From: Monosiga brevicollis MX1
Taxonomy: Eukaryota > Opisthokonta > Choanoflagellata > Craspedida > Salpingoecidae
DNA length: 38,104 nucleotides
NCBI RefSeq assembly: GCF_000002865.3
Contig: NW_001865054.1
Coordinates: forward strand, 10,395-48,498
Reading direction: 5' to 3'
Shown piece by piece: positions 6,279 to 35,867 of this stretch; position 1 is the stretch's first letter, and every line of letters begins with the position of its first letter. The position numbers and the translations under genes were made by a program. The notes under the pieces were generated by a model. It was not told the DNA's origin and ran no database searches. It was given only the letters and a program-made list of their open reading frames with translations.

Positions 6279-7621
6279 TCAGACAGAAATTTGCTTGTAG
6301 CATCCAAGCGAACATATGGGCGCTTGAGTTTCACGATGCCGATAGCGGGAAGATTGACCACACACGGAGCAGGCTGGTGCACTCGTTCGACGCTCTCTAC
6401 CCGTAGCACAGCAGCAGCAATGGGTATGGGGGTGCCCATATCCACAGCGGTATTGATGAACAGACTTGTTGCATGACATCACTCTGGGGAATCAGAAACA
6501 ACAAAGTCGGAAAAAAATAGAAATTACAAACAATACGAACCGTGGCGGCGGGAGTGCAGGAAAGGTCGCCTCGTCTTGATAGCTGATGGTCGTCCCCTCG
6601 GCTCGGCTCACCATGCGCGTATGCGGGCCAATCACTTGCCGTGCCTACGTGGCGATGCAAGACCAAACGGCGGCAGGGTGACTGCCCATACTGATACGTG
6701 TATGATTCCAAGGCGATTGGCAACGGCGCGTTTCGCACCTCTGTTTCTTGCTCGTCCATTACGGCGCGCGAGTGTTTCTGCTGCTTAAGTAGCTTCTCTA
6801 CGACGGCTCGCTTCTCTTCTTCGGCTCGTTGCGCCACCAGCTGCGTGCGACGACGGTTGGCAGCTTCCCGCAACAGCTGACGTCGCTCCTCTTCCTCACT
6901 TGACAGTGACTTGCTTTTCTCTACGCAAAAGTGGCCTCGTGAGGGTCAATCCAAGCCATATTCTGACTCATCTCTCTGGTCCTCTCCGAACATCGGTCAG
7001 CCATGAGCAAAAGTCGAAGCGTCCATTCACGCACTGTTCGGGATCTCAACCAGCTCCTCTGTGAACGGATCCTCCTCCTTCAACAGCGCCCGCTGCAAAC
7101 ACACGCACGGTGAGCGGGCTTTTAACGTGAGGCACGCTGGGTACCATCATAATAGCACCATCCAGGCTATCGTGCGCACCCGGCCCCCTCACCTGCCGCG
7201 ACGTTAGATTGGCATCTGTGGCACGAGGTAGCTCGCCGTTCTCGTCAAGCTCACCGGCCTCGAGCGCAGCCGACCATGCGTCCAGTGGATCCTCGCCGCC
7301 GTCTTCCTCTCCATCGTCCTCGTCCTCGCCCTCATCCTCATCTTCATCCTCGTCTTCATCCTCATCCCCTTCGTCGTCCACCTCATTTTCCTCAACCTCG
7401 TCGTTTCCCTCCTCCTGGCTCAGATCATCACTCTCCTCAACCTCCACGTTGCCTGATCAAGCAGCCAGCCAAGGTCAGCTCGGTTTCCGTGGCTTACACG
7501 TACGCTAGCGGCGCCGCTTACCCATTTCCACGTTTTCCTCAACCTCCTCGTCCTCTTGACTTGAAGCTGGAACGGCTTGTGTGGCTGCCGCACCACTCCG
7601 CCTTGAACGTCGCGGCGGCAT
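6279..7621 (-). CDS. INO80B: INO80 complex subunit B / IES2-like (PAPA-1 region plus HIT zinc finger)
   Basis: Nuclear subunit of the INO80 ATP-dependent chromatin remodeller. Exons: 7621-7522, 7452-7193, 7092-7035, 6920-6692, 6483-6279; in phase, about 283 aa. Order: basic N-terminus (MPPRRSRRSG), a long Asp/Glu-rich region (residues about 35-95), then the PAPA-1/IES2 block LTSRQRALL...EEEERRQLLREAANRRR with a charged helix, and a C-terminal HIT-type finger: CSVCGQ...RYRH...PICSLGCYKQ, ending six residues later. The CSLxCY ending matches animal INO80B closely; a His stands where a Cys is often found. The segment between the charged helix and the finger is odd (Cys/His-rich in the finger frame), while an overlapping frame looks more like the family motif, so this junction may hold an annotation or sequence error. 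The family call is strong; the last exon boundary is less certain. Confidence 0.85.
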
Positions 7622-11018: not shown

Positions 11019-14000
11019 TTAGGCCTCGACCACACTCAGCCGTCGCCCAGACAAGGAAGGATTGCGGGCAAAATCGTAGTCATTGTCATTGTCAATCAGC
11101 TGAACTGTCGTCTTGGCCGAAGTCGCCAAGTTGTACGTGCCTTCGCCGCTCATCTGGCTCTCCTGCAGGCGAGGCCTGGACTCGATACGTGAGGTCGAGA
11201 CGGGCTGGCGCTGGGATGCGAGAGCAAAGTGACCCTTTTTGCGACCCAACGCGGCTGCGTCAGAATGTTTTGAGCCCAAGCGTTTCTTCAAATACAGGTA
11301 CAAGCCAACAAAGCCCAAGACCTGCACCGCCAAGACAGCTACCACGAGTCCAAAGACCGCAGATACATCACTGTCCCAGGTTTGGCTGAGCGCCGAGGCA
11401 GCCGCAAAGGTGGTGGTGGTAGTAGTAGTGGTAACGGTGGTTGCTTCAGTTGTACTTGTGTCCGTGTCAATGACGCTGCTCGTCTCCAAGTACGTATTGC
11501 CATCGGCAGAGACGATTGAGAAGTTGCCACCATTCTGTAACGCCTGCTCAAGTAGAAAAACGAGGGCCTCGCTCGAGAGATCCTCCGAGCGACGGCGTCG
11601 TGCGGTTGTTGTGCTTGGGGGTAGGAACACCAAGTCTGCGGCCGTCATATTGTTTTCATCCGAGAATCGGGTCACGGCAATGCGCGCACTTGAAATACCC
11701 AAGCTGGTTGCGAGCTCGCTTGCAACTTCTGCCGCCAGAGCGATCGACGCCACACTGCTCAGATCTGCGTACGTGTCATTCCATGCGACCGTCAGAACCA
11801 ATTGGCTAACCGTAACGGATACCGTAGTCGAGTCCTCCGTGGTTGCCTCGTATTCGTACGTCCAGCTAATCTCATCGGCCGCATTCTGCGCCAGGTCCAG
11901 CAGGTTGGTTATGGTCACCGTCACGCTGGTACCAGCCAAAGTGGCCGCGGAGAAATGGCGATAGAGCGACAGCGAAAGCGTGTCGCCGGAGCACTTGATG
12001 TCGACGTCATTTGTACCAAGCTGTAATAGTCCGTCAATATCCACAGAGAGATAGAAGAGGAAAGGTCGGCTGCACAAAATATCCTCCGTCATCTTGACAG
12101 AAATCACATCGCCAGCAGAGAAGACACCGTCCACGGGCTCGGGCTGAGAAAAGATTTCGGGTGCTTCACGATCAATACGACCACTGATGATGGAAGAGAA
12201 AACCTCATTGATACCGTCTGGGGGATCCAGACCTGCTGCAGTGCATTCGGCCGCGGTCTGTAGCTCATACTCACCATCAAGCACGCCATCGACTGCCCAG
12301 TTGAGGCTACTGTAGCCGTAGTCCGACTCGTCGTACATAAAGTTGAGGATATCCCCACTGGCATTTCGGGCGTACGTCCAGTCCACGTCACCCACGCGAC
12401 GGTACATGAGGTGGACGCCCTCCAGCCGGGCATTGTCTTCCCAGCGACGGGAGGAAGTCTCAGGATTGGTGAGTGTGATGCGGAAAACCTCAGCATTCTC
12501 CTCAATGCTGACAAGGAACGAGCTCTCACGACTCATGGTGCCAGTCCAGTCAACCTGAGAGCAGGGCTGGAGGAATTCGACGGAGAGCGTCACTTCCGAG
12601 AACTGCATCAGTTCGTAGGCAGAGTCGTCGCGCCCAAGGAACTCAATGCTCTCGCAGCGCGAGCGGAAGCCCAGGACGACATCAAACGTATAGCGGCTCA
12701 TGTCGTAGCGCTCAATGGCAATCACTTGCTCATACTGTCCAAGTCCAGGCATCTGCTCGAAGAGCAGTGGCTCAAAGAGGGGATGGCCATCCGCTGCCAC
12801 AGAGACACCGGTCTCATTGCGAACATAACTGTGGATGGGTCATTGGTAGCAGGAGAGGGCGAAGCTATTAGAAAGGTGCCCCGTGCCGCGTGAAGAATGA
12901 TTGGCGATGAACGCGAGTGTAGCAAGCCAACTCACAGCTCATAGGTGGCCGACGAGATGGCATCGTTCATGAGATAGACAGTGAAAAAAGCCTTGCTCGA
13001 GGGCAATACTGCGCTTGTGGGTTCTCGAGATATCTGAACACGTGGCTACGCAAGGATAATCAAATATTTTTTAGTGCGCGACCGGGCAGTAGACATATGC
13101 GAATGCTGTTTGAGCTAGGGTCAAGCGCAAGCCAGTTGGCGATTTATGGGGGATGGGCGGTGGGTATGATTTAAGCTTTTGAATAATTGCTTGCACCAAC
13201 CTGTTCAAGAGCATAGGTGTTGCTCTCGTGCAAGCATGAGCTTGAGCCCGCCGATGTGTGGAAAACCAAAGTGTTAAAGTATGGATCCCGATAAACCTAT
13301 TAAGCCGTGTCACCAATCGCTGTGTGAGGAATACCGTGGGCCGTGCACTCTGACAAGCTGTAGACGCTCCGAGAAACAAAACTTTGCTGTTAATATCGCA
13401 CCTCAACAAGAAATTCGTTGCCCATGTCGCCATCACTGAGCTCAAAGCCCTGACGCTCAGCGGTTTGGGTGCCCCTGGTAGTATGGTTGAGCCTAAAGTT
13501 CTGGCCTTGGGCACCAAGATCACCTTCGATGTAGCCGCCTGTGGCACCTTCAAAGTCGTGATCTGCGTGTACAAACGTGCTCCAATCCAGTTGAAATTCG
13601 TGTCCAGTAGTTTTTGAGCTTTCTTCCTCGTCGGCAGTCTCATAAGAATACTGTTGATGCGGTATGCATAATTTACACATGGGTGAGAACAAGGGTGCAA
13701 TCTGTTTGCTCCCTCTTATAACAAAGACCTTGCATGTGCGAGCCACCACTACCCAGTGGAGGGACCCATCCCCCAAGATCATCATATTCAAACTCAAATG
13801 ACTTCTCACCTTGGCTCCCCCACCCGAGAAGCTGATGGCATTATTTTTCTCCAAAGAGGCTTGCGCATTGGAACTCAAACTCATGTCAAAATCGCGAGCC
13901 TGTTGCATCAAGTTGGTTGGCATCAGGTTTGTTTGCGCTGTCAAGTTGCCAGCTGCTGCTTGGGCAGTAATGTTGTCAATGTAGTCGACGATGTCAGTCC

Positions 14001-17000
14001 AGCCGTCAATGGCTTCAGTGAGCTTCTCAACTTTCGCCAAGGTTTCGTTGATGAGAGCATCATTTGTGGAGCCCTCGGCAATGAGTGCGTCATAGGAAGC
14101 CTGGGCGAGGGCCAGGTTGTTTTGAAGCGTGGGGATCTGCGCCACACCCGGCGTAAGATATAAGCGTCAAATGAAAGTGCTCCCAAACTAGGTAAATAGA
14201 ACGCAGTGCAGGGGAAAACAAAAACAAAAACAGTCGTTTGCATGACCACACCTCTTCAAGCTGTAGAAAGCGATACGTCTTGATCGAGAAGGCCCCTGTA
14301 GCACTTCGTGGATTCAAGCTCCACTGTACATCCTGCGATGATGATGCCTCGCAGGTGGTGTAGTTGAACGAAATGGTTCGCACGTCAGCAAACCTGACAA
14401 CGAGCGAAGGCGTGATGATCAAGTGATCAGACGGCGTGCCCTTGTAATCGCTGGTTTTCAAGCTGAAGGTCGTTGTGAACACTGCAGATCCATCCGCGTT
14501 TCTGTCGCCTTTGAGGTCGCTTTCAAGCGTATCAATATGAGTCTGAACACCAACATGCGTCTTATAGTCGGCCCACTGTACACACGCCATAAGTCTGAGC
14601 AGGCGTGAAAACACAATCAAAGTGAGATGTAACGGAAGTACACCCAGGACGGTGGGCCAAAGGCGGGCCGCCGTTAACGTACACGCATGTTTCCATACTG
14701 GTTCCAAAGCTAAGACCACCAGCCACTTCACTGTAAGCACCAGCAAAAGCTTTGTATTCGCTGTGGGTGATTGTCATGCTGGCTTCGGCGCTTTCATAGT
14801 ATGCATAGCTCTCTCCACCAGGTGGATCTATAAGAGTCCACGAGTTTTATTTGAAAAACAAACAATCAAAGAAGGCCAGTAAGTCACCACCTCAAAAACT
14901 GTGCAAGGCCTTCCTTTTCACCACACATACCATAAACGATGGTCAAGGGAAAGTACTCCGGAAAATCCTATCGTTAGAAGTGCAACACAGACATCCATGG
15001 TGCCAGGCTTCTGAGCTTAGGCACGACTGTTGCCGACAAAGGCATTCTTTTGTAATGCGGTGCAAGCACATACCATCGTGAAACGGTCAGAGATGATCTT
15101 TGAGCCCAAGACCACCACGGGGATGTACGTTGTTGAGGGTTGATAGACGCTTTGCGTGAAGCTGGCTGAAAAGATTTTGGCATATTTGACACCTTCCTTC
15201 TCCCCCGATGATAGCTCCGGCTCGCCTGTCTGAATCTCCAGTTCACCGCGTGCATTGGTGTATGTGTCCGATGTATCGCCATCATCATACAAAAGCTCCA
15301 GTTCACACCCGGTGTTGCACACCACGAGGCGGCTATACTCAGCGTCAGTAATGGAACTTTGTGCCAACAAGTTGTCGGCCACAGCAGTTGACTCGCCCAG
15401 CAGATTCGTGACGGATAGTGAGCCCTCGACCCAAGTGCAGTCGTCTTGGTCGTTCCAGTACTCTTCATAAACATAAACAGTGACGTTGGAAATCACATCA
15501 CGATTGATGGTGTGGACATCGCAGCTGCTGGCCAGAGTGCTGCCGATATCGACACTGATCGTGGCAGCTGAGTGATACTCCCAGCGCACAGTCGTATCGT
15601 CGCTTGAAAGGTCTGCGTCCTGCGTCAAAGTTCCGGCGGCTTCAAAGTAATTGATCATCATATCTCCAATGTCCGTGTCATCATCAGGCAATGTGCCTGT
15701 GTAGGTGACTTCCCACAAAGTGGCAGGCATTTGCAAAGTGGTCTCGTAGCGCACTGGCACCTCCTTCTGAATGGTACATGTTGGCAGCGAAAAGACAAGG
15801 GTTGAGGTTCCAAGGGTCCGATTGCACTTGCCACCTGCGACCTGCAAGGTGACATTGCGGGTCGTCACATCGTGAAAGTTGATCGATTCACTGCTGAGCT
15901 CATCGAAGGAGATTGAGAAGTAAGAATAGGCAAGCACATCGCCCACAAGGCTCAGGGTGTCAACAGTTCCATCCGGTGTGCGACTACGATCATTAGAAAG
16001 GAACTCAAATTCGTGGTCTTCATACTCGACGGTCCCGTATACCACCATGCCGGCTGGAATGGGGGCAACATAGTAGCCAGTGGCGTCCGTGTAGGCACAG
16101 ACGATAGCGGAATGGGAGTAGTGGCTGTTAAAGCACACGTGGGCATTGTTCATGCCACAACCATCTGGATTCGAGTCAGACTCGGTGCCATTAATGTAGA
16201 CATAGCCATACACCGGCACAGCTGAGACGTCAGTAAAGTCAGCTTCGGTATTGAAGGTCAGCCACTCGACCAGAAAGGTGCGAGAAGTGCATGGCAACCC
16301 ATCGCATTCGTAAGTATGATTGACTGCTTCAGACTGCTTAGAGACAGAAATGTTCATTTGCTCGTATTTCTGACTCAAAAGGTCAGTCTGGATGTAAATC
16401 TCGTATTGACCGTTTGAGTCGGTGGTGGTGGTGCCAGAGAGAACGCCACCCAGTGTCCATTCAATCGTGGTGTCAGCAACAGGCACACTCTCAAATTCAT
16501 CGTTGCCAATGTTCACAGACCCCTTTACCATGGCTTCCTATTGCGCATGCAGTCACATTCCTAGAGGTCAGTTGCAGGTTGGCTCAAAGTGCAATATTGG
16601 CATGGACGACGCACCCATTTGATCTTAAAGTCGATGCAAGTCTGCGAGGACTCGTAGCGACTATCCAATTGCTGGTTGTCGGCCCACACGACCGTCGTGC
16701 GCGAGTAAGCGGATATGCAGTACGAATAGGCAGAACCGACATCAACTTCGGGAGAAATGACAGCATCGTCGTAAATGGTTTCTGGGTGATGTGTCGTGCC
16801 ACAAGCCGAGCTCGATGCGACGTCATCTAGGCACGTGCATAAACAAAAGAACAAGCAGCAGTGTCACAAAACTGATTTCTCTAGTCAATGTATTCACATT
16901 TCCAGCCCAGCATCGTTCAAGCTAGTTCTGTTACCGTACAGGAAGAAGTAAAGGTGTTGGTGTCGCGACGCATGATGAAACCGTCTTCACAGTAGCTCTA

Positions 17001-20000
17001 TCAAACGGACCAAGCCCGCGTACCATGACAATATAAGACCCATCAATGCGACGCTGACCCTTTCAGGCTCAACCGGGAGAAACCTGAGGCAGCCACTCAC
17101 CTCGTCAGTCCATTGGAAGAAGATTTTGCCCATGTGCTGGGTGGCACTGACGTCGATGGGGGGTCCTGTGGTGTCGGATTGATCGCACCCGCAGGTGGTC
17201 TGCACAATATTGAACTCGGCGGCCTCATCCTCATACTCTGACGCATCCTTGTCCTGGGACTCGACCTTAAGATAGTAGTACTGGCCTGAAATAAACGGGA
17301 GAAAACCGTGTTAGCGCGAATCCAGGTGGCACAGAGTTGCACTTGTGGCCTACAAGTCAGCGTTCGGTACCTGACCTGGCACGAGGTTGGCAAACGTGTG
17401 GTCTGAAATGTCAGCGTAGCCACTACCGCTGGTATCAGCGGAAACCTCCAGGGGATAGCCCACAGCGTCATCATACGCATCTGAGGGCCAAGCGTAAGCA
17501 CGGGAGAGCATCGTGAGTGTGCATGCATGGAGATTTTGCTTTGGAGCTACAGATCAGTAACGCAAAAACCAAAGCATTCTTACATTCGCGGTCTCGCCAC
17601 AGGCCCAAAGTAACGCGGAACTTGGCCCATCGTTGAGCTGAGTTATCGATCTTAATGGTTATATTTTTGGCGTAAGCCTCATAGGTCACGGAGAAAGCGG
17701 GTTGATCAATGCATTCGGTAGCACCCGTCGTCGTGACGTAGGTTCCATCTGGACACGTCTGACAAGATGACTGCGCCGTCTATGGCGTTGCAAAATATCC
17801 ATGATGCCATGAGTTGTTGGCCAGCACAAGCTGTTTTGAAGTCCTGCGGAAGCCGAAGGGAAACGCTATCTTACCGAATCTTGATATTTTCCTGGCCAAG
17901 GCGAGGACTGGCAACTTTTGCAAGAATTCGCCGTGTTAACATCTGAATACTTGCCCACTGGACAGGCCTTGCGGGTAGTGCGATCAGAGTCAGATACATA
18001 GTAGCCCGTACTATAGTTCAAAAGTATCAACATAAGTTGATCGCGTTTGATGAGCGATGCAGATGATGGAAGGAAGGATGTTGTCAGCACGCCCTCCTTT
18101 CCCTTACCCGGCCTGCTTGCAAGAACTTTGGCCTGTCTGGTCAGTGTATGTGCCGCTCGAGCACGACGTGCAGGCAGTATTGCCAGTGCCCGACGCATAT
18201 TTGCCTACGCAGAAATGCATTGGTTTAATTAGCAAAAGAATGTTTGCAACATGCTTGGATAGCGATGTGCGCAGGGATGAGAGGCGCCCACCTTGAGCAC
18301 ACGAGGAACAACTCGTCTGTCCACTGCTAGATTGGGCTTTGCCGGCCGTGCAGGCAACACACACGCCATCCACTGTGTCACCAGACTGATAGTATCCAGC
18401 GTTGCACGAGGTACCTCCGTCGCAACCACAGTTTTGATCACACCCCGAGTCACAACTGCTATCGCAGTTTACCGAGCCGCCGCAATTACTACATTGTGGT
18501 TCACAAGTCAAGCCAGCATTGCAGTAAGCAAAGTCAAATCATGACGAATCATACCAGTTTGATACTATTATTTAGCTACCAACCTGTCACATCCGTTATC
18601 ACAGCTGTCACGTTGTCGTCGATTCAGTGTCAGATGGCGGGGGGTTCGTATGTGCGGAGAGGCAACAGACATGAGGCGTAAAGATTAAGTCTCAACCCTT
18701 CGAGTCAAGCGCCGAACGCTGCAAACCACGTCGGAAACGCAACGTACCTGCCATCACAATCGCAGCCAGAGGAGGAACATGTGCCGGCGGACGAGCAAGG
18801 CGCAACCCAACTCGTGCCACGACGACTGCGTTCCATGCCCATCGCCGTGTCGCGGACACTGGAGACACGCTCAACGAGCTCATTGCCCGCACACTGCAAC
18901 AGAGCGCCAAGATTTTGGCGAAGTTTTTGACGGGGCCAGTAGAGACCAGAGCGATCACCCAGACTGCGTTGCAGCTGCTCAAAGCGAATACCACTGAGTG
19001 CCGAAAGAAGCGAGTACGACGCTTCACCCATAATCAGCGGGCTCAGGCTGGCGCAGAGCTGTTCGCGCCAAGTAGCCAGGCCCGGCACAGCCAGCTCGTG
19101 CCAAATGAGGCCCTCAGGCGTCTGACCAACGGCATTGGCGAGTGCCTCATACTGATGGCAGACGTAACTGGGGAGGGTAGTGCGCTGGCACTGGGCAGTG
19201 AGAACGTCGAGCCAGGTGCGGCCCGTGCGGGAGAGACCGATGGTGAGATGGGCAGAGGGGGTATCGGTGGTGACGGCGTAGTGGATGACGCCCTTGGGGA
19301 GGTACATGCTGTCGCCTTGGTGGAGGGTGACGTTGCGGCAGATCATGGGCTGGAGCATGGACATGGTGTAGGTGGTGCAGCCGTCGAGGTGGCTGCGTTT
19401 GATCTCCTGGAGCTGGGCACGGTCGGCTTCTGAGAGGGAGACGGTGGCGTTGTCTGTCTGGGGGAGGCAGAGGGTCCAGTGTTTTTGGTTTGCCACCTGG
19501 ACCACGACGACGTCGTATGGATCCGTGTGGGGCTATCGAGAAGGACAGAGGGACAGAGGGACAGAGGGACAGTGAAGTAGGAGGTCGTGTGAGCAGAGAG
19601 GTGGATGAGCATGCGTTTCCGTGTGTCAAAGCGGTGAGAGGCAAGGCACGGCAAGGCAAGGTGGGGAAGCATGGGCGGTACCTCGAGGGTCTGGGCGTTG
19701 GCAGGAGTAAAGTAGGCGTGAACGGTGGCATCGATGCCGAGTTCGGATTCGATGAGGGACTCGAGGGCCGATGGCTGGGCCTTGCGGTCAAACTCACGCT
19801 TGTAGACGACGCTGGTCACATCGCTCATGTTCTGAAGCTCGGCCCAGCTTGGCGTCGTTGAATACTTTTGGTTCAAACGCATCGCCTTGATGGCATTGGG
19901 GAAGCCGGCGGCCTGGCGATAGATGGAACCAAAGGCTTCGAGGCTCGCCATGTGTTGAGCGAGGGGTTCGGTCTCGCGCAGCTGGGTGAGAAAGGCATCG

Positions 20001-20218
20001 GCATCGGACCCGGAGCGGGAGACGACGCGTGTCTGTGTCTGGAAGGTTCGTTCGATCTGGCGGGAGTTCATGGGTTGGAGGACTGTCACAAGACCATCGT
20101 TTCCTTGGGCTGTGGGGCTGAGGCAGAGCAGGTAGAAAAGTAGGGCGAGGGCAGGCAAGCGAGTGTACAGCCGCTTCTGCACCGGCCTCGCCTCACCCAC
20201 GGTTGGCGTGGGCGTCAT
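11019..20218 (-). CDS. receptor A: extracellular JmjC/cupin-4 domain fused to a giant single-pass membrane protein
   Basis: Twenty exons read in phase (20218-19682, 19532-18748, 18604-18584, 18488-18292, 18204-18108, 18010-17875, 17779-17584, 17480-17376, 17285-17101, 16997-16940, 16826-16615, 16537-15074, 14967-14931, 14827-14683, 14594-14252, 14136-13810, 13650-13402, 13296-13201, 13045-12936, 12828-11019), about 2,369 aa. Order: hydrophobic signal segment (LALLFYLLCLSPTAQG); JmjC/cupin-4 fold with PHTDPYD (His181, Asp183) and LPKGVIH (His263); CDxGCD linker; ephrin-receptor-like Cys repeats (GYY/GKY...C..C); fibronectin-III-like modules (QYYYLKVES); an exon of 488 codons with many NxT/S sites and carboxypeptidase-regulatory-like strands; a helical stretch; bacterial-Ig-like DREAP module; SEA-like module with RRRR; Thr-rich stalk; transmembrane helix; 89-aa tail ending RRLSVVEA. 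JmjC relatives hydroxylate proteins using Fe(II) and 2-oxoglutarate; the substrate here is unknown. Start ATG 20218; upstream Met 20317 is possible. Confidence 0.85.
18584..18604 (-). other. 21-nt microexon of receptor A
   Basis: Seven codons' worth of sequence, encoding Cys-Asp-Asn-Gly-Cys-Asp with split Ser codons at both ends. It is flanked by an AG acceptor (CGTGACAG) and a GT donor (GTTGGT). Receptor B has the same-length exon at 29293-29313 with the same phase, which supports it as real. Confidence 0.8.
18905..19832. repeat. near-identical duplicated tract, copy 1 (JmjC-coding)
   Basis: Matches 29581-30517 almost base for base. I count about five differences in about 420 bp compared in detail, and the match runs through the intron at 19533-19681. 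Identity falls off abruptly at both edges although both flanks are also coding. A second short identical stretch lies at about 19957-20050 (partner about 30636-30729). Confidence 0.93.
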
Positions 20219-21549
20219 CTCGGCGGCGGCAATGCTCGACAGTAGCAGTGGTAGTGCTTCAATTCCAAAGGTCAGCGGGTGGATCGACCAGAGTGAAAGA
20301 AAAAAAAAATGAAGCATTCACACACCCCAGCTCGAGAGACTGCATGGATTCAATCTCAACAGGAGGGGGGCGAGAGGAGCCGAGAGGAGCAAAGGCTGTT
20401 GTTGTTTACACCCAGTTTTTTTTTTTTTCCGTCCTGAAATTGGGACCAAAGGAGTTGGGAAAAGGGGTGTGTTTGAGCATCAGGGGTACTTGGACTGATT
20501 GGGACCGTTCGTCCAAATGCTCCGCTCCATCCGCTCCGTCCGCTGTTGGAGTTTCACGAGTTCGGAAGAGGGAGAGGAAAGAGGGAGAGGGAAGTGGGAG
20601 AGGGAAGTGGGAAAGGGAAGGAGGGAAGGAGGGGACTGTTGTGTGGTTTGTCTGAACCCGCTGTTGCTTTGTTTTCGTCTCACTGCGACTTTGCCTGAGC
20701 GGCAGGGGCTGACGCACCACCATACTTCGGACGTGGTTGGGTTGACTTTTTGTAGGTTGGGACACTATCATCACGTCTGTCGTGACAAAAACCAGCACGT
20801 GAAGAATGAATGACATGCACTTGTACAACGAAATTTCAAATTTTTTTCTACTTCACTTGTTTTTGAGAACTACAACAACAAAGAACAAAACAAAACCTGA
20901 CAGGGTGTAAGGTGCGTGATGGTGTGGAAAGGACTGCTACTTCAAGGCTAAGTTGGCGAGACAACAATGGGTTGTGGTGGTCAGGTTTGACACCTAATTC
21001 ATTGTGAGGTCAACACAACAGTCTTACACGTTTCGATGCGTCGGGCGGTGCGTATGTGCCGTTCGCTTGCCTCTTGCTTCTCTCACCTACTTTTCGATGC
21101 CACCCAACCTATCTGGCCTGATGCTTGCTACAAACACCTTGTTTATCACGCGCACCGATCTGTGCTCAAGCTCGTCTCCCAACTTTTTTCATGTATCGAT
21201 ACATATGCAGCTCTAGAGGAGGGTGATAGCACATTCATTTGCCATTTGCAAATTTGTGTTACCAAAGCACACCCTTTTATTGCTACAACAAGGGAAGGAT
21301 TTGTGATGACGAAAAAGGGGCTCTTTGCTTTGAATTGCGCCGACTGAAAAAGCGATGCTTAAAAACATGTCAATTCTTTCATTGACAAGAGCAGAACCGG
21401 CAGGGTGGGTGGTAGCTGGCGGCCTTTAATAATTTTCAACATCCCACTAACTCACAAACGTTAAACACTCATGCACAGGCTCAAAATATCAAGGAGCTAG
21501 TGAGGTTAGCATGGGCAGAAAGCATGCAAGAACCGACGATCATCAGCAT
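20219..21549. other. intergenic region between the tandem receptors
   Basis: Lies upstream of receptor A and downstream of receptor B (both minus), so it should hold the receptor A promoter. It contains a T13 run at about 20415, a homopurine tract at about 20560-20640, and AT-rich parts around 20840-20900 and 21240-21480. No supported gene. Confidence 0.5.
20560..20640 (+). repeat. homopurine GGGA-rich tract
   Basis: About 80 bp almost entirely A/G on the plus strand, made of repeated GGGAGAGGGAAGT-type units with many G3 runs. It lies about 350-420 bp upstream of the receptor A start. Confidence 0.85.
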
Positions 21550-23495
21550 CTACGCCGAGACGACGCTCACTCGTCGCCCGGTTGCAGGCAGAGCATGCTC
21601 CTCTTCAACGTCAGATTGAGCAAAGTCTGTCATGGCATCCAAGTCCGTGCTGGTCACGCGACGCTGTCCGTGCGCAGAGTTGCGATAGGCCAGTTCATAA
21701 GTTGGGTTTGCCACATCCTGGCGGTTGGCCAGCTCATATGTCGTGTTCACATGGGCGGGAGATTGAGCAAAGCTGTAGTTGCTGTCCTGCTTGCCAGTGC
21801 GGGTCGACTTGGCGCTCCCTGCCGAGAACACTTGGAATTGGCGTTGGTGCTTGGAGGAACCCTCCAGATGCGCGCGCTGGCCGCGATACTTGTAGCACCA
21901 CACCAGGGCCACAATCACCACAAACTGCAACACCATCGTCACAATAGAAACGACAAACGTGGCAGTGACGTCGTCCTTGAGGGCCGAGATGTCCGCCGAA
22001 GAGGCCGACGCACTGTTGTCCGAGTCTCCCGTGGGTGTCGCCGTCGTGCTACTCTCCCCATCCGAATCGTCATCAATGATGCTGCTGGTTTCCAGGTAAG
22101 TATTGCCATCAACGGACACAACGGAAAAATTGCCACCGTTCTGCAGTGCTTGCTCAAGGAGGTACACCAAGACCTCGCTTGACTGCTCCGAGTTGTCGCG
22201 ACGACGCGCAGAAGCTGCTGCCGTGAAGAGCAAGCTGACGGCCGTTCGGTTGTCAGCCTCCTCGGAGAAGCGCTGAACAGAGATGCGGGAGGTCGCCACG
22301 CCGAGGATACTGGCCAGTTCCGAGGCGATGCGTGCGGCCAGCGCCTGTGCCTCCTCGCTGTTGATGTCCGCGTAGGCCTCGTCCCACGTCACCGTCAGGA
22401 CCAGGTCGTTGATGGCTACCGACACACTGGACGTGGTCGTCGGGGCCTCGTACTCGTACGTCCAGCTAATCTCACTGGCTGCGTTCTGCGCCAGATCCAG
22501 CACGCCCGTGATGACAACCGTCACACTCGAGCCAGCCAAGGTGGCCGAGGAGAAGTGGCGATAGAGCGACAGTGACAGCGTGTCGCCGCTGCACTCAATG
22601 TCAATGTCGTTGGTACCTAGCTCGAAAAGCCCCTCAACAGTCACGGCCACATAAAAAGGGAAGGGGCGGCTGCACACAATATCCTCAGTCATCTTCACTG
22701 AGATCACATCGCCAGCAGAGAAGACACCGTCCACGGGCTCGGGCTGAGAAAAGACGCCTGGCGCCTCCCGATCAATGCGGCCACTGATCGTACTAGAAAA
22801 CACCTCATTGATGCCATCCGGCGGATCCAGGCCCGCCGCAGTGCACTCGCTCACTGCCATCAGCTCGTACTCCCCGTCCAGAACACCATCGGTATTCCAT
22901 TCAAGGGTGCTATAACCGTAGTCCGACTCGCCGTACATAAAGTTGAGAATGTCCCCGCTGGCGTTGCGGGCGTACGCCCAGTCCACGTCACCCACACGAC
23001 GGTACATGAGATGCACGCCCTCCAGGCGGCCATTGTCTTCCCAGCGGCGAGAGGATGTCTCAGGGTTGGCCAGGGTAACGCGGAAGATCTCGGCATTCTC
23101 CTCAATGTTGACAAGGAACGAGCGCTCGCGACTCATGGTGCCAGTCCAGTCAACCTGGGAGCAGGGCTGGAGAAACTCAACGGAGAGCGTCACTTCCGAG
23201 GACTGCAGCTCAGCCAAGGCAGCATCGTCGCCACCCACAAACTCAATGCTCTCGCAGCGCGACCGGTAGCCCAGAATCACGTTGAAGGTGTAGCGGCTCA
23301 TGTCATAGCGTTTCACGGCAATCACTTGCTCGTACTGCGACTCACCGGGCATTTGCTCAAACACAATGGGCTGAACGAGACGATGGCCATCTGCCGTGAC
23401 GGACACACCCGTCTCGTCACGAATATACCTACATTACCGAACACAGGAGACGAGGTGACGGGCACGCTTTGTCGGAAACTGTTGCGGACGCGGTC

Positions 23496-23569
<74 letters not shown>

Positions 23570-26500
23570 GCAACAACAACAACAACAATCATCATTCTTC
23601 AGCACTCAAAGGCGTAAACAGAACACTCACAGCTCATAAGAGGCAGAGCCAATGGCATCGTTGAGCAACAGGACGGTGAAATAGGCTTCGGCATCCGGGA
23701 AAACCTCCCCAGCCGGCGTGCGCGTCACAAGCAATCGTGGCTAAAGGGGAAATGAAAAGACAAACAACGTGAAACTGCCGCTTCACTGCAATAGCCCCAT
23801 CGGTGTCGTGCCCCAGAGGCACACGAGCTGTACACTCTAGGGGAGGGCACGAAATGCAACGCACCTGCTGCAAGGCATATGTATTGTCCTCGTGAAGGCA
23901 CGAGCTGGAACCAGCAATCGTGGCAAACACCATGGTGTTGAAATAGGGGTCACGATAGACCTAAAAGGTGACCCCATGCAAAGCACAACAAGAATGCCAT
24001 TGCCACCCACATCTTGGTGAGCCGTGACACGCCGCGTTGCAAGTGGTGTTGCGCACTTTGCACAGTGGTGTGCAAGGTCTCACCTGCACCAGGAATTCAT
24101 CACCCATGTCTGGATCACTCAGCTCAAAGCCAAAGGTGGCGGTGGTACTCGAGCCATTCGTTGTTGTGTCCTGGTCGTTGATTTCACCCTCGCCACCCAC
24201 GTCTGCACCCACATAGCCGCCAATGACAGTGGCGGAGAAGTCGTGGTCACCAACAATGCGCGCGTTCCAGTCGAGGTGATAAAAGTCGCCGCTGGTAGAC
24301 GTTGCTTCTTGCTCACGAGTGCTCTCGTAACGATACTAAAGCCCAGGCCGACATCAAACCACACAGTCACATTGATGAGAAGGGAAAATACAGCTGTCAC
24401 ACCCGGTAAGGGCGGGAGGCAGGAGGCGGAGGGCAGAGGGCGGAGGGCGCGAGGCGCGTGGATGCTTCTGTACCTTCAGGCCACCACCGCTAAAGCTGAT
24501 GGCATCATTGACCTCGAGATTGGCTTCCGCATCCTCGACCTTGTTCAGGTCAAAGTCCATGGCATTGGCCATGAGCTTGGAGGGCATCAAATGTGTCTGG
24601 CGGGTCAGGTTACCGGCCTCGGCCTGGGCAGTCATGGTGTCAATGTAATCCAAGATCGACTGCCACCCGTCAATGCCCTCGTTGATCTTGCTGATCTTGG
24701 TCAATGTCTCGTTCTGAGAAGCAACATTGTCTGGCTGAGTTTCCAGGAGCTCTTCATACTCTGCCTCGTAGTAGGCCAGGTTCTTTCTCAACGTCGGCAG
24801 CTGTGTACGCAGTCAGAACCAAACACAACACAGTATGAGAACCCTGCATGGGCGATACACAAGGTGGGGCAAAACCAAACAGGAGGCGCATCCTCTCAGC
24901 ACAAGCTCTCAGCACAAGCCGCCACAGAAACACCCACCCACCTCCTCAATCTCAATAAACTTGTACGACTTGATGGAGAAGGCGCCAATCTCGTTGGCCT
25001 TGTCCAGGGTCCACTGGATCTCCGTATCCACGTTTGACTCGCAGGACGTAAAGTTGAAGGAGACCACGCGGACCTCGGCAAACTTGACAACGAGGGAAGG
25101 TACGACAACCAGGTGGTCCGAGGGCGTCCCAGAATAGTCGCTGGTTTCCAACGTGAAGGTTGTCGTCACTTGCAGGGACCCGTCCTTGTTGCCGCTCGTC
25201 TTGATCTTGCCCTCCAAAGAGTTGATGTCCGCAGCAACACCCAAGTGTGAATGGTAGTCAATCGTCTCGACGCATGCCACCAAAGCACACGACTCCATCA
25301 CCGTTCCAAAGCTCAGACCGCCTTCAATATGGCTGTAAGCTCCGGCAAAGGATGCATATTCCTTATGGGTCAAGGATAGTGAAGACTCGGCTGCCTCATA
25401 CCATGCGTAGCTCGCGCCACCCGGAGGATCTAGCAAGGCACCAATTCATCACGGATCAGGATGGCAGTTCCAAGCGCAGTGGCGAAGCAACATTAAGTCG
25501 GATAGACCACGTACCGTAGACGATGGATAGGGGAAAGTATTGGGGAAAGTCCTAAGCCGTGTTGCAAGACAAAGCAAGGCAAGGCAAGACAAGACAAGAC
25601 AAGGCAAGACAAAGCAAGGTAAGACAAAACCAAAAAAAAAAGGAGGGGCGGGGGGGATCGAGGCAGAGGAACAGCCGGCGTCAGACAGGAACAGCTGCAG
25701 CGCATTGAAGAAACCGGGATCATCCATGTGCTAGCAAACCCACAATCCACAACCTACCATCGTAAACTTGTCGCTGAGAACCTTGGCACCAGTCACAACG
25801 ACAGGTACGGCAAGCGTCGAGTCGATATTGACCGCATGCGAGAAGCGAACGGAAAAGAGTTTGGCATACTTGACACCCTCCACCTCGGCAGTGGTTTCCG
25901 GCTCGCCCATTTGAATCTCCATCTCCCCACGAGTAAACTCATACGTATCGGCATTCTCGCCATCGTCGCGCTGCAGCTCCACTTCGCATTCCGTGTTGCA
26001 AAGAACCAAGCGATCATACTCCTCTTGCTCAATGGCTTGTTCAGACAAGAGCTCGTCAGCCACAACCGTGGTCTCACCCAGCTGGTTGGTGACGTACAGA
26101 TTGCCCTCGACCCAGGTGCAGTCGGCCTGGTTGTCCCAGAACTCCTCGTACACCGTTACTGTTACATCGCTGACGACGTCGCGCCCAATGACCTTGGTGT
26201 CACAGGAAGAGGTCTTGGTGCCCGAGATGGTGAGCTCGATGGTGGCCTGCGGGTGATACTCCCAGCGGGCGGTTGCTTCTTCGCTCGAGAGGTCCACGTC
26301 CTGCACACGCACGCCAGCCGCCTTGTAGTACTTGAACATCATGTCCGTGACGTAGGTATTGTCAAAGGCCACGGTGGAATCGTACGAGGCAATCCAGTTG
26401 ATGGCCGGAACCTCCTGGACGCTCTCATATAGAACCTCATAGGTCAGTTCGATGTCGCAGGTCGCGTGCGTGAAGACAATGGTGCTCGTGCCCAGTGTGC

Positions 26501-29500
26501 GGTTGCACTTGCCACCCGCCACCTGCAACGTGACGTTGCGCTTGGTCACATCTTGAAAGTTGATGTCGTTGCCGTTGACAACGTCAAAGTCCACGTAAAA
26601 ATACGAGTAGTTGAGCGTGTTGCCCATGCTGTCAACGACGACTTCGCTGCCCTCTGGAGTCAGGCTGCGAGAGTTGTTCATCAGCTCATACTCATGGTCC
26701 TCATACTCGACTGTGCCATAAACAGTCAACCCTTCGGGCACTGCCACAACGTAGTAGCCCGTAACGTCAGTGTAGGAGCAAGCAATGGTGCCGTGGGTGT
26801 GGCGGCTGTTGAAGCACACGCGGTGGTCTTGCAGACCACAGCCGTCTGGGCTGGCCGTGGTGATTGTGCCGTCAGCGTAGACGTAGCCCGTCAGCGGGAC
26901 GCTCGAGGTGTCCTCAAACTCAATCTTGTTCTCAAAGGTCAACCACTCCACAAGGAAGGTGCGCGAGGTGCAAGAGATGCCGTCGCATTCGTACGTGTGC
27001 TCGATGCCCTCAGAGGTCTTGGCCACGGACACAATCATTTCTTCAAACTGGTTGGTGAGGAGATCTGTCAGAATGTAAACCTCAAACTCGCCGTTGGCGT
27101 CTGTTGTTGTCGTGCCTGACAACGTCCCCCCTCCAATGCTCCATGACACGTTGGTGTCGGCCACGGGAACCTTTGAAAACTCGTCGTTGCCCAACGCAAC
27201 CTGACCTGTCACCTTGGCCTCCTGAGAAAGCCGGGAGAGCAGAAAAGAAAAAAAGAAAGAGAAAGAAAAAAAAAAAAACGGAATACGAACAGAGACACCA
27301 CCAAGTCAGTGTTGAAACGGCCCTGCTTCATGAAGACAAGCCAGTCGGCGCGAGCGCAGCAAACACTCACCCATTGCACCTGATAGTCGGCACAGGCCTC
27401 GCTCGACTCATAGCGGCTATCCAGATCTTGGTCGTCGGCCCAGATCACCGTGGTACTCGAGTACGCGGAAACACAGTATGAATACGCTTGGCCAACATCA
27501 ACCTCGGGTGAGATGATAATGTCGTCAAATACCGTTTCCGGTTCGTGTAGCAAACCACATGCCGTGCTGGAGGCCACGTCGTCTAAGGCACCCGACAGCC
27601 AATGGCATAGCAATGTGTTGGGTTAGATGCCTATCATGGTAGTGGCCACCCGACAAGGAAAGGAACAAGGCGGGAGCTACTCACAGGAGGAAGTGAATGT
27701 GGTACCATCGCGGCGCAGAATGAACCCATCTTCACAGTAGCTCTAACAAACAAGTTAAAAGCAACAACAACAACAACCCATGCAAAGGTTAGTATATACT
27801 ACCAACCCAGGTACGGCAATCAACTCCAAGTCGCAAGCTTTCCGAGATGTCAACCAGACCTGATCCTCCCAAGAGAAGAAGAGCTTGCCCATGTACTGCT
27901 CAACGGCCATGTTGACTGGCGGTCCACTCGTGTCTGTCTCTTGGCAGCCGCAATTGGTTTGGACAATGTTGAACTCGGCGTATTCATCTTCATACTCATT
28001 GTTGTCCTTGTCCATGGCCTCAATCTTCAGATAGTAGTATTGGCCTGCGCAGAACATTTGCAAAACAAGGGTAAGGAAGGAAAGGTTGGGAACAAAGATT
28101 TGACGAAGCGAGCGCGATCACATCGGAGTAAGTTGCCGCGACGCAACGCCCAAGCGCACCTGGAATCAGGTACGAGAGCGTATGGGATGAGACAGAGTCA
28201 TAGGAGCCGCTTGTCTTGGAGGCATCCACTTCAATGGGATAGCCCGAGGCATCGTCATAAGCATCTAAGCATCCCCACGACATTTGCGCAGTATCGGTAT
28301 GTCAGCAAAGAGGTCATCGGAGCAAGCAGTGCCTGGCACGCATTCCCATCAGTAAACCCACATTCACGTGAGCGCCAAAGGCCCAGGCTGATGCGGAACT
28401 GGCCCCAGCGGCCAGCAGAGTTGCCCACGTTGATGGTAATACTCTTGGCCGCGGCCGAGTACGAGGCAGTCAAATCAGGCTGGTCGATGCAACTCGTGGC
28501 TGAGTTTGATGTGACGTATTTGCCGTCAGGGCAAGCCTTGCAGCTGCTCTGTTTTGCCTGATTCTGGTACTCGCCAGGCCACGGCGAGGACTGGCAACTC
28601 TTGCATGAGTTAGCCGTGGAAGTATCAGAATACTTTCCGGCCGCGCACTGCAGGCGGCGCGTGTGGTCTGAATCCTTGACATAGTATCCGGTGCTACGTC
28701 AAGGGATTAGGCCGTGGTGAGTGGTGGCTGATAAATGCTCATGCGCACAGTTGTATAGGAATAATGTTGATGAAAAATTGAACACGACCTACCCGGCGTT
28801 CGTACAGCTACTTGAGCCGTCCTGGGTGTTATACTTGCCGCTTGGACAAGTATAGCAAGCGTTGAACCCCTTTCCAGAGTATTTGCCTAATTCAATGGCA
28901 AGCATGCAATCAGTCGCAGATGACACGGCGGGCATCTCCTCCATGCGAGGTGGATCAATGTCTGCATTCGCAGAAGCATGCGCTCATACCTTGAGGACAG
29001 GAGAAACATGAGGTACCACCGGTACTTGGTTGATACTTTCCAGCAGCACATTCATTGCACTGAGCCTCCGACTGGGCTCCGGAGCGATAGTATCCTCTGT
29101 TGCAGGCAACAGTGCCATCACATTCACAGCTTGAGTCGCAGCTCGAATCACAGCCGCTGTCGCAGCTGAGGCCTAAAGTGCAGCCGCTGTATAAACGCAA
29201 GAGATGGTGGAGATGAGGGACGAAACGACAGTATCTCATGCCGGAGTTGATCAACAAGGGCAAGCGAGCAGGGGCCTTGGTGCAAGAAATACCTGTCACA
29301 ACCGCTATCACAGCTATATGGGGCCGAATAGGAAAGGGGGCATCGCAGGTCAGTCAAATAACAACAAGGCAAGGAAACGTTGGCTATAGCCGACAGCAAG
29401 CCAGCGGCAATGCAGCGACTTACCTTGAGTCACAATCGCAGCCAGAGGCGGAGCACGTATTCGCCGAAGCACATGGTGCCGTCCAACTTGAGCTGCGACG

Positions 29501-30860
29501 ATCACGCTCAAGACCAATCGCGGCATCGTGATGCACATTGACACGCTCGGCCAACTCTTGGGGTTCACACTGTAACAGAGCACCAAGGTTTTGGCGAAGT
29601 TTTTGACGGGGCCAGTAGAGACCAGAGCGATCACCCAGACTGCGTTGCAGCTGCTCAAAGCGAATACCACTGAGTGCCGAAAGAAGCGAGTACGACTCTT
29701 CACCCATAATCAGCGGGCTCAGGCTGGCGCAGAGCTGTTCGCGCCAAGCAGCCAGGCCCGGCACAGCCAGCTCGTGCCAAATGAGGCCCTCAGGCGTCTG
29801 ACCAACAGCATTGGCGAGTGCCTCATACTGATGGCAGACGTAGCTGGGGAGGGTAGTGCGCTGGCACTGGGCAGTGAGAACGTCGAGCCAGGTGCGGCCC
29901 GTGCGGGAGAGACCGATGGTGAGATGGGCAGAGGGGGTATCGGTGGTGACGGCGTAGTGGATGACGCCCTTGGGGAGGTACATGCTGTCGCCTTGGTGGA
30001 GGGTGACGTTGCGGCAGATCATGGGCTGGAGCATGGACATGGTGTAGGTGGTGCAGCCGTCGAGGTGGCTGCGTTTGATCTCTTGGAGCTGGGCGCGGTC
30101 GGCTTCTGAGAGGGAGACGGTGGCGTTGTCTGTCTGGGGGAGACAGAGGGTCCAGTGTTTTTGGTTTGCCACCTGGACCACGACGACGTCGTATGGATCC
30201 GTGTGGGGCTATCGAGAAGTACAGAGGGACAGAGGGTCAGAGGGTCAGAGGGACAGTGAAGTAGGAGGTCGTGTGAGCAGAGAGGTGGATGAGCATGCGT
30301 TTCCGTGTGTCAAAGCGGTGAGAGGCAAGGCACGGCAAGGCAAGGTGGGGAAGCATGGGCGGTACCTCGAGGGTCTGGGCGTTGGCAGGAGTAAAGTAGG
30401 CGTGAACGGTGGCATCGATGCCGAGTTCGGATTCGATGAGGGACTCAAGGGCCGATGGCTGGGCCTTGCGGTCAAACTCACGCTTGTAGACGACGCTGGT
30501 CACATCGCTCATGTTCTTGAACTCGGCCAGCGTCAGCGGGCTGTGCAAGGTGTCGATGCCGCCATGCTGTGTTGTGCGGATGGCATTGGGAAAGCCAGCA
30601 GCTTGAACATAAATGTTTTCAAAGTCCAACAAGCTCGCCATGTGCTGAGCGAGGGGTTCGGTCTCGCGCAGCTGGGTGAGAAAGGCATCGGCATCGGACC
30701 CGGAGCGGGAGACGACGCGAGTCTGTGTCTGGAAGATACGTTCAAGCTGATTTGGGGTGATGGGCTGCAAAAGGGTAGCCAAGCCCTCGAGACCATGGGC
30801 GGGTCTCAGGCAGAGGCAGAGCAGCAGGAGAACCGCCGAGGCGGCGCACCCGCGAGCCAT
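21550..30860 (-). CDS. receptor B: extracellular JmjC/cupin-4 domain fused to a giant single-pass membrane protein
   Basis: Tandem paralogue of receptor A. Eighteen exons in phase (30860-30366, 30208-29424, 29313-29293, 29186-28990, 28886-28793, 28693-28362, 28264-28160, 28044-27860, 27742-27685, 27582-27371, 27221-25758, 25551-25515, 25429-24942, 24800-24474, 24335-24084, 23960-23865, 23740-23631, 23428-21550), about 2,378 aa. Start ATG 30860 is in GCCACCATGG-like context and opens a clear signal peptide (ASAVLLLLCLCLRPAHG). The metal triad is His167, Asp169, His249. Domain order equals receptor A. Most exon lengths are the same in both (for example 785, 21, 197, 185, 212 and 1464 bp). Two introns of A are absent here. 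The juxtamembrane SEA-like module carries RRRD; the transmembrane helix is VSIVTMVLQFVVIVALVW. The tail of about 113 aa has three tyrosine motifs (SNYSFAQ, NTTYELA, NPTYELA) and ends RRVSVVSA. Substrate and ligand are unknown. Confidence 0.85.
23495..23588. repeat. (CAA)n trinucleotide microsatellite in a receptor B intron
   Basis: About 30 CAA units with one CAG interruption, inside the intron between the last two receptor B exons. Receptor A has no such tract in the equivalent intron. The poly-Asn and poly-Leu frames across it are artefacts. Confidence 0.97.
25557..25625. repeat. AAGAC/AAGGC short tandem repeat
   Basis: Runs of CAAGGCAAGACAAGACAAGA-type units in the intron upstream of the 37-nt exon of receptor B. 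Non-coding in all supported models. Confidence 0.8.
29293..29313 (-). other. 21-nt microexon of receptor B
   Basis: Encodes Cys-Asp-Ser-Gly-Cys-Asp with split Ser codons at both ends. It is flanked by ATATAG and GTATTT. It is equivalent in length, phase and sequence to the receptor A exon at 18584-18604. Confidence 0.8.
29581..30517. repeat. near-identical duplicated tract, copy 2 (JmjC-coding)
   Basis: Partner of 18905-19832. It covers most of the JmjC/cupin exons and the intron between them, including the small GACAGAGG repeat (about 30221-30255), which differs slightly in unit number from copy 1. Confidence 0.93.
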
Positions 30861-33972: not shown

Positions 33973-35867
33973 CTAAGTCTTGAATGTCTTTTGACGCTTC
34001 ATTTGATTCCGGTGTCTTGAGCAAAAGTCCTCATGCTGAAGCACACGACGTTGATCTTCCAGAGAACGCTCAAGCGCGTCAAGTCGTTCCTCCATCATTC
34101 CCCGAAACCAGACCTGAAGCTGGCGTTGGCGCTTGTCGATTACGCTTGAGAGTGGGGCCACAACCTCTATGGAGGATGCCAGCTCGTCCCACGCCTCTAG
34201 GAGCAATATTGGGGCTTCAAATAAATCGCTCGGAAACCGAACACCTAAGTCTAATTGCGCTACAACAGGGATGGCTCCCGCTTCAATGGCCTCATAAAAG
34301 CAGGTCCAATCAAGCTCATGCTCCTACGTGTCGCAAAGAGTTTTAGAAGCAAAGCGAAGCCTTGTCAGTTCAAAAGCACCAATTCCATCTCAGGCAAAAC
34401 TGCACAATTTAATAGCTACGCGTACCAAAGGGCAGATAGTGAAAGAGGATGCCAGCATGATGCGTGCCGTGGCCGCCGTCGTCAGGCCATCGCTCGCATC
34501 AAGATCGTCCTTATTGAGTGGAACGAGGCTTTGCTCGTAAACCTGCACGACATGATGAGTCCATCTTAGTTGAAGCCTTGCATCGACTTCAACTTTGCTT
34601 CGCGGCACGCCGCTGCAGACAAAGATAGAAACACACCTTTCCAGGAAACAGTTGAGACACGTGTTGCAACGCAGCACGGATAGTCGAGCGCAAGACCGAG
34701 GGACAATTGACGCTTAAACTGACGACGTATTGGCTGATAAAAGGAAAAAAGGGGGGACACGGTTAGAGTGGGAGACCGACAAAAAATACAAATAGAAAGT
34801 GCATAGTTGCACACTGGAATTTAGCATGTTTGCTGTTGTGCGTACCGCGTGCTTGCTGGCAAGACTTGATCAGGAGCGATGGACGGGAAAGTAGCACGCG
34901 TGCCAATGGGAAACAGATCATATTCTTGAGCGCTTTCCGGGTGAGTGGCTTGGTGATGCCACTGCGGTAAAAATATTGGCGCGCGCAAAGTGGGAAAAAG
35001 CGAGGGATTCATTTGTTCACCAAAAATCAAGAGTGCAGTGCGTCCCGGAATTCTCTGTGCCGCTTGTGCAAGGTCTTCAACTGCCACCAGCATGACTTTG
35101 AAGCCAGGATTGTCCATGCAGACTTCTTTAAACCATTTTGTGTCGTCAAGGCTTGCAATGCTGGTGAGCTGCTGCTCGGTGTAAGAGTACGAGCGTCGGG
35201 ATGTGCTTGCGATGGTGCGCATGCTCCAGTCCAACGGCGAGATAGGGGACGCTGAGAAAACGTACAACGTGATGCGGGGTCGTAACGCAGAGTCGATGTG
35301 AAGAACTTCCGACCAGAAGTTTCGTCCACCACATGTGGTCTGTGAAAAGCCTGAGCAAGGCTGCAAGCAGACGTTTTGCCTGTGTTGTCCATCTTCATAC
35401 GCCGAGAAAGCGCGCAAGCAGCCACACTGGTTACCTTTGTTGAGGACGGCAAATTCGAAGCTCTGGTCGGCACAAAAACGCGCGCAGCGAGTTCGCGTCA
35501 ATTCAGGAAGCACAGTCGGCTGTATATCCACCTTGCTGATTGGCAAATAAAAACAACCAAGCGGTGAGGCTTTGATTCTCAAAGAGCGCACGGCAACAGG
35601 CTCCTTTTCTTCTTCTTCACTTTGCTTCGATGAGAATCCTCGACTGAAGCGCGGACGATTGGGCGAAAACTCTTTCGTTTGCGCATCTTCATCTGATCGC
35701 GGCACGTGGAAGGCATGGGCATATGGATGCGGCTGTGGCAGGGTGGGTTTTGCAGGAGAAGGCGCCGTTTGTGTTCGTGATGCTGCAGACCCATGCCAGA
35801 GCAATAGACTGCAGGCCAGGAGCGCCACTACAAAGAGTGCCACCAGAAATGTGGGAAGGCGAGCCAT
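33973..35867 (-). CDS. WSC-domain, exostosin-like (GT47-like) type II membrane glycosyltransferase
   Basis: Probably a Golgi glycosyltransferase. Exons: 35867-34846, 34733-34637, 34542-34426, 34323-33973; in phase, about 528 aa. The N-terminus is a short tail plus membrane anchor (LVALFVVALLACSLLLW), then a Ser/Pro-rich stem. Residues about 105-195 form a WSC-type Cys domain (LGCFYLP, RCARFC, QCGCLRAF, C..PCSG, CGGRNFW), a proposed carbohydrate-binding fold. The catalytic part has LLIFGEQ, the block SVLRSTIRAAL, SSFTICPL and CFYEAIEAGAIPVV, the exostosin/RXYLT1-like pattern for nucleotide-sugar binding. The C-terminal 70 residues are helical and charged. Start: the first ATG, 35867; an in-frame GTG upstream is not expected to be used. 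The donor sugar and acceptor are unknown. Domain assignment is good; the exon 2-3 boundary is the least certain. Confidence 0.82.

Follow-up and report, generated by a model that had tools for sequence, protein, structure and literature searches.

A candidate family of JmjC-headed membrane proteins in Monosiga brevicollis

Can an oxygenase of the NO66/MINA type sit at the outer end of a membrane protein? The question is raised by a 38,104-nucleotide (nt) stretch of contig NW_001865054.1 of the choanoflagellate Monosiga brevicollis MX1 (the whole of this stretch is called the window here), in which positions 11019-30860 are occupied by two tandem minus-strand genes, A and B. Enzymes of this type are nuclear and ribosomal protein hydroxylases, dependent on Fe(II) and 2-oxoglutarate (2OG). 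The protein order in both A and B is strongly predicted to be a signal peptide, a JmjC_2/Cupin_4 domain, Ephrin_rec_like repeats, a long ectodomain, one transmembrane (TM) helix, and a short tail. We hold, with somewhat more belief than doubt and on the basis of sequence, that A and B are type I membrane proteins with a lumenal or extracellular Fe(II)/2OG oxygenase head, probably active, and that the family to which they belong numbers at least 22 genes.

Gene models and the JmjC module

Exons were joined by comparing homologous segments of A and B and searching for paired GT/AG sites that preserve frame and alignment in both genes; a 21-nt exon and two introns unique to A were positioned by hand. 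The boundaries given in an earlier note on this DNA proved exact: the stop codon of A ends at 11019, and B begins at 30860. The resulting models, with positions counted from the start of the window, are as follows.

11019..20218, minus strand: gene A, 20 exons, 2358 amino acids (aa), ATG at 20218-20216, stop codon ending at 11019 (computed gene model)
19682..20218, minus strand: gene A exon 1, encoding the signal peptide (within aa 1-39, read by eye) and, Tyr169 included, the N-terminal portion of the JmjC module
18748..19532, minus strand: gene A exon 2, JmjC core with the Fe(II) triad H181, D183, and H263 and the 2OG lysine K196
17584..18604, minus strand: gene A Cys-rich exons, Ephrin_rec_like, from the 21-nt exon 18604-18584 on (Pfam E 2.5e-10)
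11376..17480, minus strand: gene A remaining ectodomain, sub-threshold Pfam matches only
11286..11375, minus strand: gene A transmembrane segment, aa 2241-2270 (hydropathy)
11022..11285, minus strand: gene A cytoplasmic tail, 88 aa
21550..30860, minus strand: gene B, 18 exons, 2371 aa, ATG at 30860-30858 in the context GCCGCCACCATGG, stop codon ending at 21550 (computed gene model)
30366..30860, minus strand: gene B exon 1, encoding the signal peptide and, Tyr155 included, the N-terminal portion of the JmjC module
30792..30860, minus strand: gene B signal peptide, about aa 1-23 (hydropathy)
29424..30208, minus strand: gene B exon 2, JmjC core with the Fe(II) triad H167, D169, and H249, the 2OG lysine K182, and the family-invariant cysteines C187, C217, C230, and C280
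28362..29313, minus strand: gene B Cys-rich exons, Ephrin_rec_like, from the 21-nt exon 29313-29293 on (Pfam E 8.9e-10)
21973..28264, minus strand: gene B remaining ectodomain, sub-threshold Pfam matches only (Big_1, CarboxypepD_reg, SEA)
21886..21972, minus strand: gene B transmembrane segment, aa 2232-2260 (hydropathy)
21553..21885, minus strand: gene B cytoplasmic tail, 111 aa

The introns (19 in A, 17 in B) are all GT-AG and 77-206 nt long, and those shared by the two genes lie in the same places and the same phases. That all exons are in phase, as first described, holds in the sense that a single frame stays open through each gene; it does not hold for the introns themselves, among which phases 0, 1, and 2 are mixed. 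Gene A could also start at an upstream in-frame ATG at 20317. The 21-nt exon at the junction of the JmjC and Cys-rich parts encodes a Cys-Asp-rich heptapeptide in both genes, and the last intron of gene B (202 nt, as against 107 nt in A) carries a long run of TTG triplets at about 23600-23490.

The identity of the module, which had been read as JmjC/Cupin_4 from its motifs, was borne out by profile comparisons: i) the spliced region of B matches Pfam JmjC_2 (PF08007) with E 3e-18 and 66 bits against a curated cut-off of 22, while exon 2 of A or B by itself gives E about 3e-13, so that exons 1 and 2 both contribute to the module; ii) the best matches among solved structures are MINA53 and NO66, at E 3.4e-7 to 1e-6 with a single sequence, and a profile of five family members reaches E 8.8e-17 against MINA53, the best stretch being profile positions 6-165; and iii) hhalign aligns the family with six bacterial JmjC_2 proteins at 99.7% over columns 8-259 of 384. 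No NCBIfam model matched the JmjC part.

The proposed NO66/MINA-type HxD...H iron site is likewise in place, and the clear relatives are indeed the ribosomal oxygenases MINA53 and NO66. RIOX2/MINA53, RIOX1/NO66, and bacterial YcfD have in common with A and B the JmjC_2 family, the HxD...H motif, and a lysine 15 residues after the first histidine; a conserved 2OG-contacting lysine with the same spacing is described for Hydra No66 (PMC6006756). In A and B a tyrosine lies 12 residues before the first histidine and the threonine is also present, matching residues that line the MINA53 pocket, where Tyr167 and Thr255 contact modelled inhibitors (PMC8667043).

As for the source of the module, 13 pattern matches in the viral contigs scanned included none that is related, and a prokaryote scan gave 98 bacterial relatives, the best 80 of 98 being kept, largely actinobacterial and 28-41% identical in the best segment; a close viral or prokaryotic origin thus did not emerge among these sequences.

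Downstream of the JmjC exons the ectodomain measures about 1,800 residues (A 441-2240, B 427-2231), close to the 2,000 or so first estimated, and after the Ephrin_rec_like repeats about 1,600 residues have no confident Pfam match. The ectodomain exon has no match in the PDB, and a structure prediction from two sequences (mean predicted local distance difference test score, pLDDT, 30.2) is not usable as a model. The type I single-pass layout is predicted for both genes, as the earlier note had it, with signal peptide, one TM helix, and cytoplasmic tail. By hydropathy, the signal region and the TM segment of B pass the threshold, together with one 19-residue window at 1428-1446 that passes weakly; in A the TM segment alone passes, and the counterpart of B 1428-1446 falls below the threshold. 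The two tails share the C-terminus GRR(L/V)SVV(E/S)A as well as several motifs that contain Tyr. No Pfam kinase match was found in the last exons of either gene, which are therefore not receptor tyrosine kinase genes by that measure.

The family in the genome

We searched the 39.47-Mb genome (57 contigs, the A/B stretch lying on contig 41) with the JmjC part of B and obtained at least 50 places, grouped into 26 loci: A and B, 20 others of the same class by sequence, two of the nuclear kind (a MINA-like locus on C39 and an NO66-like locus on C47), and two weak ones (on C43 and C50). The family counts below refer to the 22 JmjC modules of A, B, and the 20 other loci, with C43 and C50 outside. 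A further locus with a PF08007 match (L131, on C52) was dropped since it has no match to the module of B, and other weak PF08007 matches were not taken in.

The Fe(II) ligands (HxD and the distal histidine) and the 2OG lysine are intact in all 22 modules. Among the 20 other modules, the lysine, a tryptophan, the distal histidine, and the threonine are each present in 20 of 20, and the tyrosine in all 18 readable rows. HxD is read in 17 of 18 readable rows, the exception being L035; we rejected a loss there, the row being an intron read-through with an upstream exon that ends in HTD, and because the upstream exons of L035, L036, and L043 all end in HTD, the motif can be counted in all 20. Four cysteines (B 187, 217, 230, and 280) are also found in 20 of 20 other family modules and in none of 19 bacterial rows; the MINA-like row has Cys at two of the four columns, in a stretch taken for intron. 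Four invariant extra cysteines are as would be expected of a module that folds in the secretory pathway. The ratio of nonsynonymous to synonymous substitution rates (dN/dS) is 0.17-0.38 in seven of nine comparisons of JmjC exons; in the other two the synonymous rate (dS) is saturated.

The JmjC module is joined to ectodomains of several kinds. The ectodomain exon of B matches five genes, namely A, B, and one each on C32, C46, and C12, the last three being collinear with B from about aa 43-56 to aa 2094-2156 (segments 28-74% identical). The genes on C46 and C12 read through to a TM segment and tail; the read of the C32 gene was not extended that far. The C32 and C46 genes are identical over 95.6% of 6.7 kb and are therefore recent duplicates. 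Elsewhere the module heads ectodomains with Sushi and HYR_4C and/or DUF4215 domains (L036, L037, and L039 by Pfam; L040-L042 by similarity to these), ectodomains with Bact_surface_Ig-like and HYR domains (L034 by Pfam; L046 and L047 alike by eye), or a long Cys-rich array (L045, by Pfam). For three loci (L132-L134) the sequence covers the module and N-terminus only.

One relative, L043 (2340-6817, plus strand), encodes the JmjC module, a Cys-rich region, a TM segment, and a tyrosine-kinase-like domain matched by PF07714 in two open reading frames (E 9e-17 and 2.1e-16). Aligned to KIT, this domain has VSA at the HRD position, so that the catalytic aspartate is absent. L035, with a JmjC module resembling that of L043 and a kinase-like remnant recognised by eye, is probably a second JmjC-headed kinase-like gene. 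Another relative, L041, runs on into L048 and there reaches a TM segment and a Tyr-rich tail. The Tyr- and Asp-rich tail past the TM segment of L048 (4030-4506, plus strand) has repeated Tyr motifs that resemble phosphotyrosine sites by eye.

In a FastTree tree of query-anchored rows (175 columns) the receptor-type modules form one clade with local support 0.94. The five A/B-type modules (A, B, C32, C46, and C12) are not kept together, and for this reason we draw no order of fusions.

Is the JmjC module truly part of these receptor-like genes? The collinear arrangement from JmjC to ectodomain recurs in five genes on four contigs; in both L043 and L045 a single open frame holds the JmjC core and the start of the Cys-rich part, extending in the latter into the long Cys-rich array; and in A and B neither a stop codon nor another signal-like hydrophobic segment lies where the two parts join. 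Transcripts ending before the Cys repeats had been named as an outcome that would undo the proposal, and nothing in the sequence points to them: the junction is open and the order from JmjC to Cys-rich recurs in unlinked genes. These observations argue strongly that the fusion is real and conserved and not an artefact of the gene models.

What the head may do

Catalytic activity of the JmjC heads can be proposed with moderate confidence. Lumenal collagen-type hydroxylases use O2, Fe(II), and 2OG in the secretory pathway. By the mechanism that we envisage, i) the JmjC module would fold in the endoplasmic reticulum (ER) with disulfides of its own; ii) it would be catalytically competent, using O2, Fe(II), and 2OG in the secretory pathway; iii) it would hydroxylate a residue in its own neighbouring modules or in a partner travelling along; iv) the protein would then reach the cell surface, where ligand binding by the head may be a further role; and v) the tail or, in a relative, the attached tyrosine-kinase-like domain would transmit the signal. 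The suggestion that A and B may be surface or secretory-pathway oxygenases is supported by the intact ligands, the signal-like N-termini, and the TM segments, all of them predicted features.

Several points nonetheless weigh against an active lumenal oxygenase head. The structure model of exon 2 is weak, with a mean pLDDT of 55.5 and 10-residue means of 56-82 across the first 100 residues; a Foldseek search with it puts NO66 first, a YcfD-like enzyme 15th, and MINA53 17th, only two matches having E <= 0.001 and TM-scores being about 0.26. Because these scores are weak, the case for a JmjC fold rests mainly on the sequence profiles. The 2OG-binding residues are present in the sequence, and the model of the double-stranded beta-helix is poor; the profiles speak for a JmjC/cupin fold, and so against the non-cupin fold that would have undone the idea, more firmly than the structure does. 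Homology to the dimerisation and winged-helix domains was not detected by hhalign, which stops at column 259 of 384; beyond the homologous columns a helical stretch is predicted at low confidence. Two of the four cysteine columns fall where the bacterial proteins are without the stretch. Signal peptides and TM segments are hydropathy-based, and a TM segment is seen in six of 22 genes (A, B, C46, C12, L041/L048, and L043), the rest being too short or not scanned for one. On the other side, signal-like in-frame N-termini speak for the reading in 15 of the 20 other loci; three are without an anchor and two without such an N-terminus.

The alternative that survives best, unlikely in our judgement yet deserving of weight, is an idle or sensory head, in which the JmjC fold, binding Fe and 2OG or some ligand from outside, acts in recognition or in the sensing of metabolites or oxygen and hydroxylates no substrate. 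Little free 2OG is to be expected extracellularly; the modules of L036 and L042 have diverged strongly over a near-identical ectodomain, as a recognition head might; and L043 has a kinase-like domain that itself looks like a pseudokinase. Set against this are dN/dS values well under 1 wherever measurable and the Fe(II) ligands and 2OG lysine kept in 22 of 22 modules, a conservation that also makes less likely the dead oxygenase fold for binding that the earlier note had offered as an alternative.

An ER-resident maturation enzyme acting on folding clients, with surface display incidental or absent, is improbable. Extra cysteines would suit a lumenal fold, and there is a precedent in JMJD8, a human JmjC protein of the ER lumen with a signal peptide, as in A and B, and folding-related partners (PMC5684140). 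JMJD8 is, however, a JmjC-only protein without a large ectodomain, whereas the module described here is joined to large multi-domain ectodomains of several kinds and is not a free enzyme; nor was an ER-retention signal seen by eye in the tails of A and B. Finally, that the computed models of A and B have merged a separate upstream JmjC gene with a receptor beginning further on is hardly credible, given the collinear order across four contigs, the matching intron places and phases, the single open frames of L043 and L045, and the lack of a second signal-like segment near the junction.

The preferred reading, a membrane protein with a probably active oxygenase head, sets A and B apart from the JmjC proteins already described. 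In ribosomal oxygenases the JmjC domain is accompanied by dimerisation and winged-helix domains, and ribosomal proteins are the substrates of the human enzymes (PMC6006756). A and B differ from them in the signal peptide, the extra cysteines, the long ectodomain, and the TM segment; the predicted secretion signal argues against ribosomal protein hydroxylation by A and B, and the genome has its separate MINA-like (L129) and NO66-like (L130) loci. JMJD6, formerly the 'phosphatidylserine receptor', is a JmjC protein once called a transmembrane receptor, a claim contradicted by its nuclear localisation (PMC2453528); unlike JMJD6, A and B have a signal-like N-terminus, Cys-rich modules, and a TM segment within one gene model. 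The M. brevicollis proteins RTKC8 and RTKB2 have ectodomains of Cys-rich, HYR, SCR, and EGF type (PMC10263333, PMC3584944), and by published description resemble several JmjC-headed relatives in their Cys-rich, HYR, and SCR/Sushi type ectodomains; they are receptor tyrosine kinases, whereas A and B are without a kinase domain.

The words JmjC and cupin are absent from the main texts of both RTK papers and from that of a holozoan kinome study (PMC8662651), and the paper on Riox evolution (PMC6006756) makes no mention of 'choanoflag-', Monosiga, transmembrane, or signal peptide. No description of a JmjC-headed receptor was found in titles and the starts of abstracts among the matches listed, a scope outside which the 2008 papers on the M. 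brevicollis genome and its tyrosine kinases fall; the novelty of such receptors is accordingly provisional. We would tentatively go further and suggest, as a possibility we still doubt, an undescribed class of surface receptors in single-celled organisms closely related to animals, a large family in which an active JmjC oxygenase is outermost and recombines separately from interchangeable ectodomains, followed by a TM segment and Tyr-containing tails or kinase-like domains. If so, O2-, Fe-, and 2OG-dependent hydroxylation outside the cytosol would be wired directly to surface recognition or signalling. A family of more than twenty genes with the intact catalytic module behind a secretion signal and, in the genes read far enough, on membrane proteins would carry NO66/MINA-type chemistry into the biology of the cell surface, in a lineage from which the beginnings of animal signalling are studied.

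Modular gene conversion and neighbouring frames

The head of A and that of B are far more alike than the rest of the two genes. Intron 1 is identical at 146 of 149 positions, and only 4 of 146 four-fold degenerate sites differ over aa 134-390; from aa 391 onwards the share is 48-69%, depending on the region. The part before aa 134 is less uniform, 4 of 25 such sites differing at aa 40-100 and 2 of 6 at aa 101-133, and the downstream end of the tract, within exon 2 near 18916, is sharp. The pattern is one of gene conversion, which homogenised the JmjC module between A and B.

18916..19807, minus strand: main gene-conversion tract in A, spanning intron 1 (B counterpart about 29592-30491)

Two other pairs are the mirror image of A and B, with near-identical ectodomain stretches and diverged JmjC modules. 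Over 944 codons of the Sushi part, L036 and L042 are separated by a dS of 0.009, yet their JmjC exon 1 reaches dS 1.44 and their exon 2 saturation; between L037 and L038, 224 Cys-rich codons are identical and JmjC exon 2 has dS 2.2, exon 1 only 0.22. The recent duplicates on C32 and C46 have no such contrast between JmjC module and ectodomain. From the opposite patterns in A/B and in L036/L042 and L037/L038 we infer that recombination can act on the JmjC module and on the ectodomain independently, each as a cassette; modular gene conversion of this kind shows how such receptors can be reassembled.

Two further open frames in the window, both on the minus strand, may be recorded. The one at 6400-6945 has a weak PAPA-1-like match (Pfam E 1.5e-5, barely over the cut-off), and the one at 34824-35948, adjoining A and B, contains a WSC domain (Pfam E 9.7e-11), another domain of cell-surface type.

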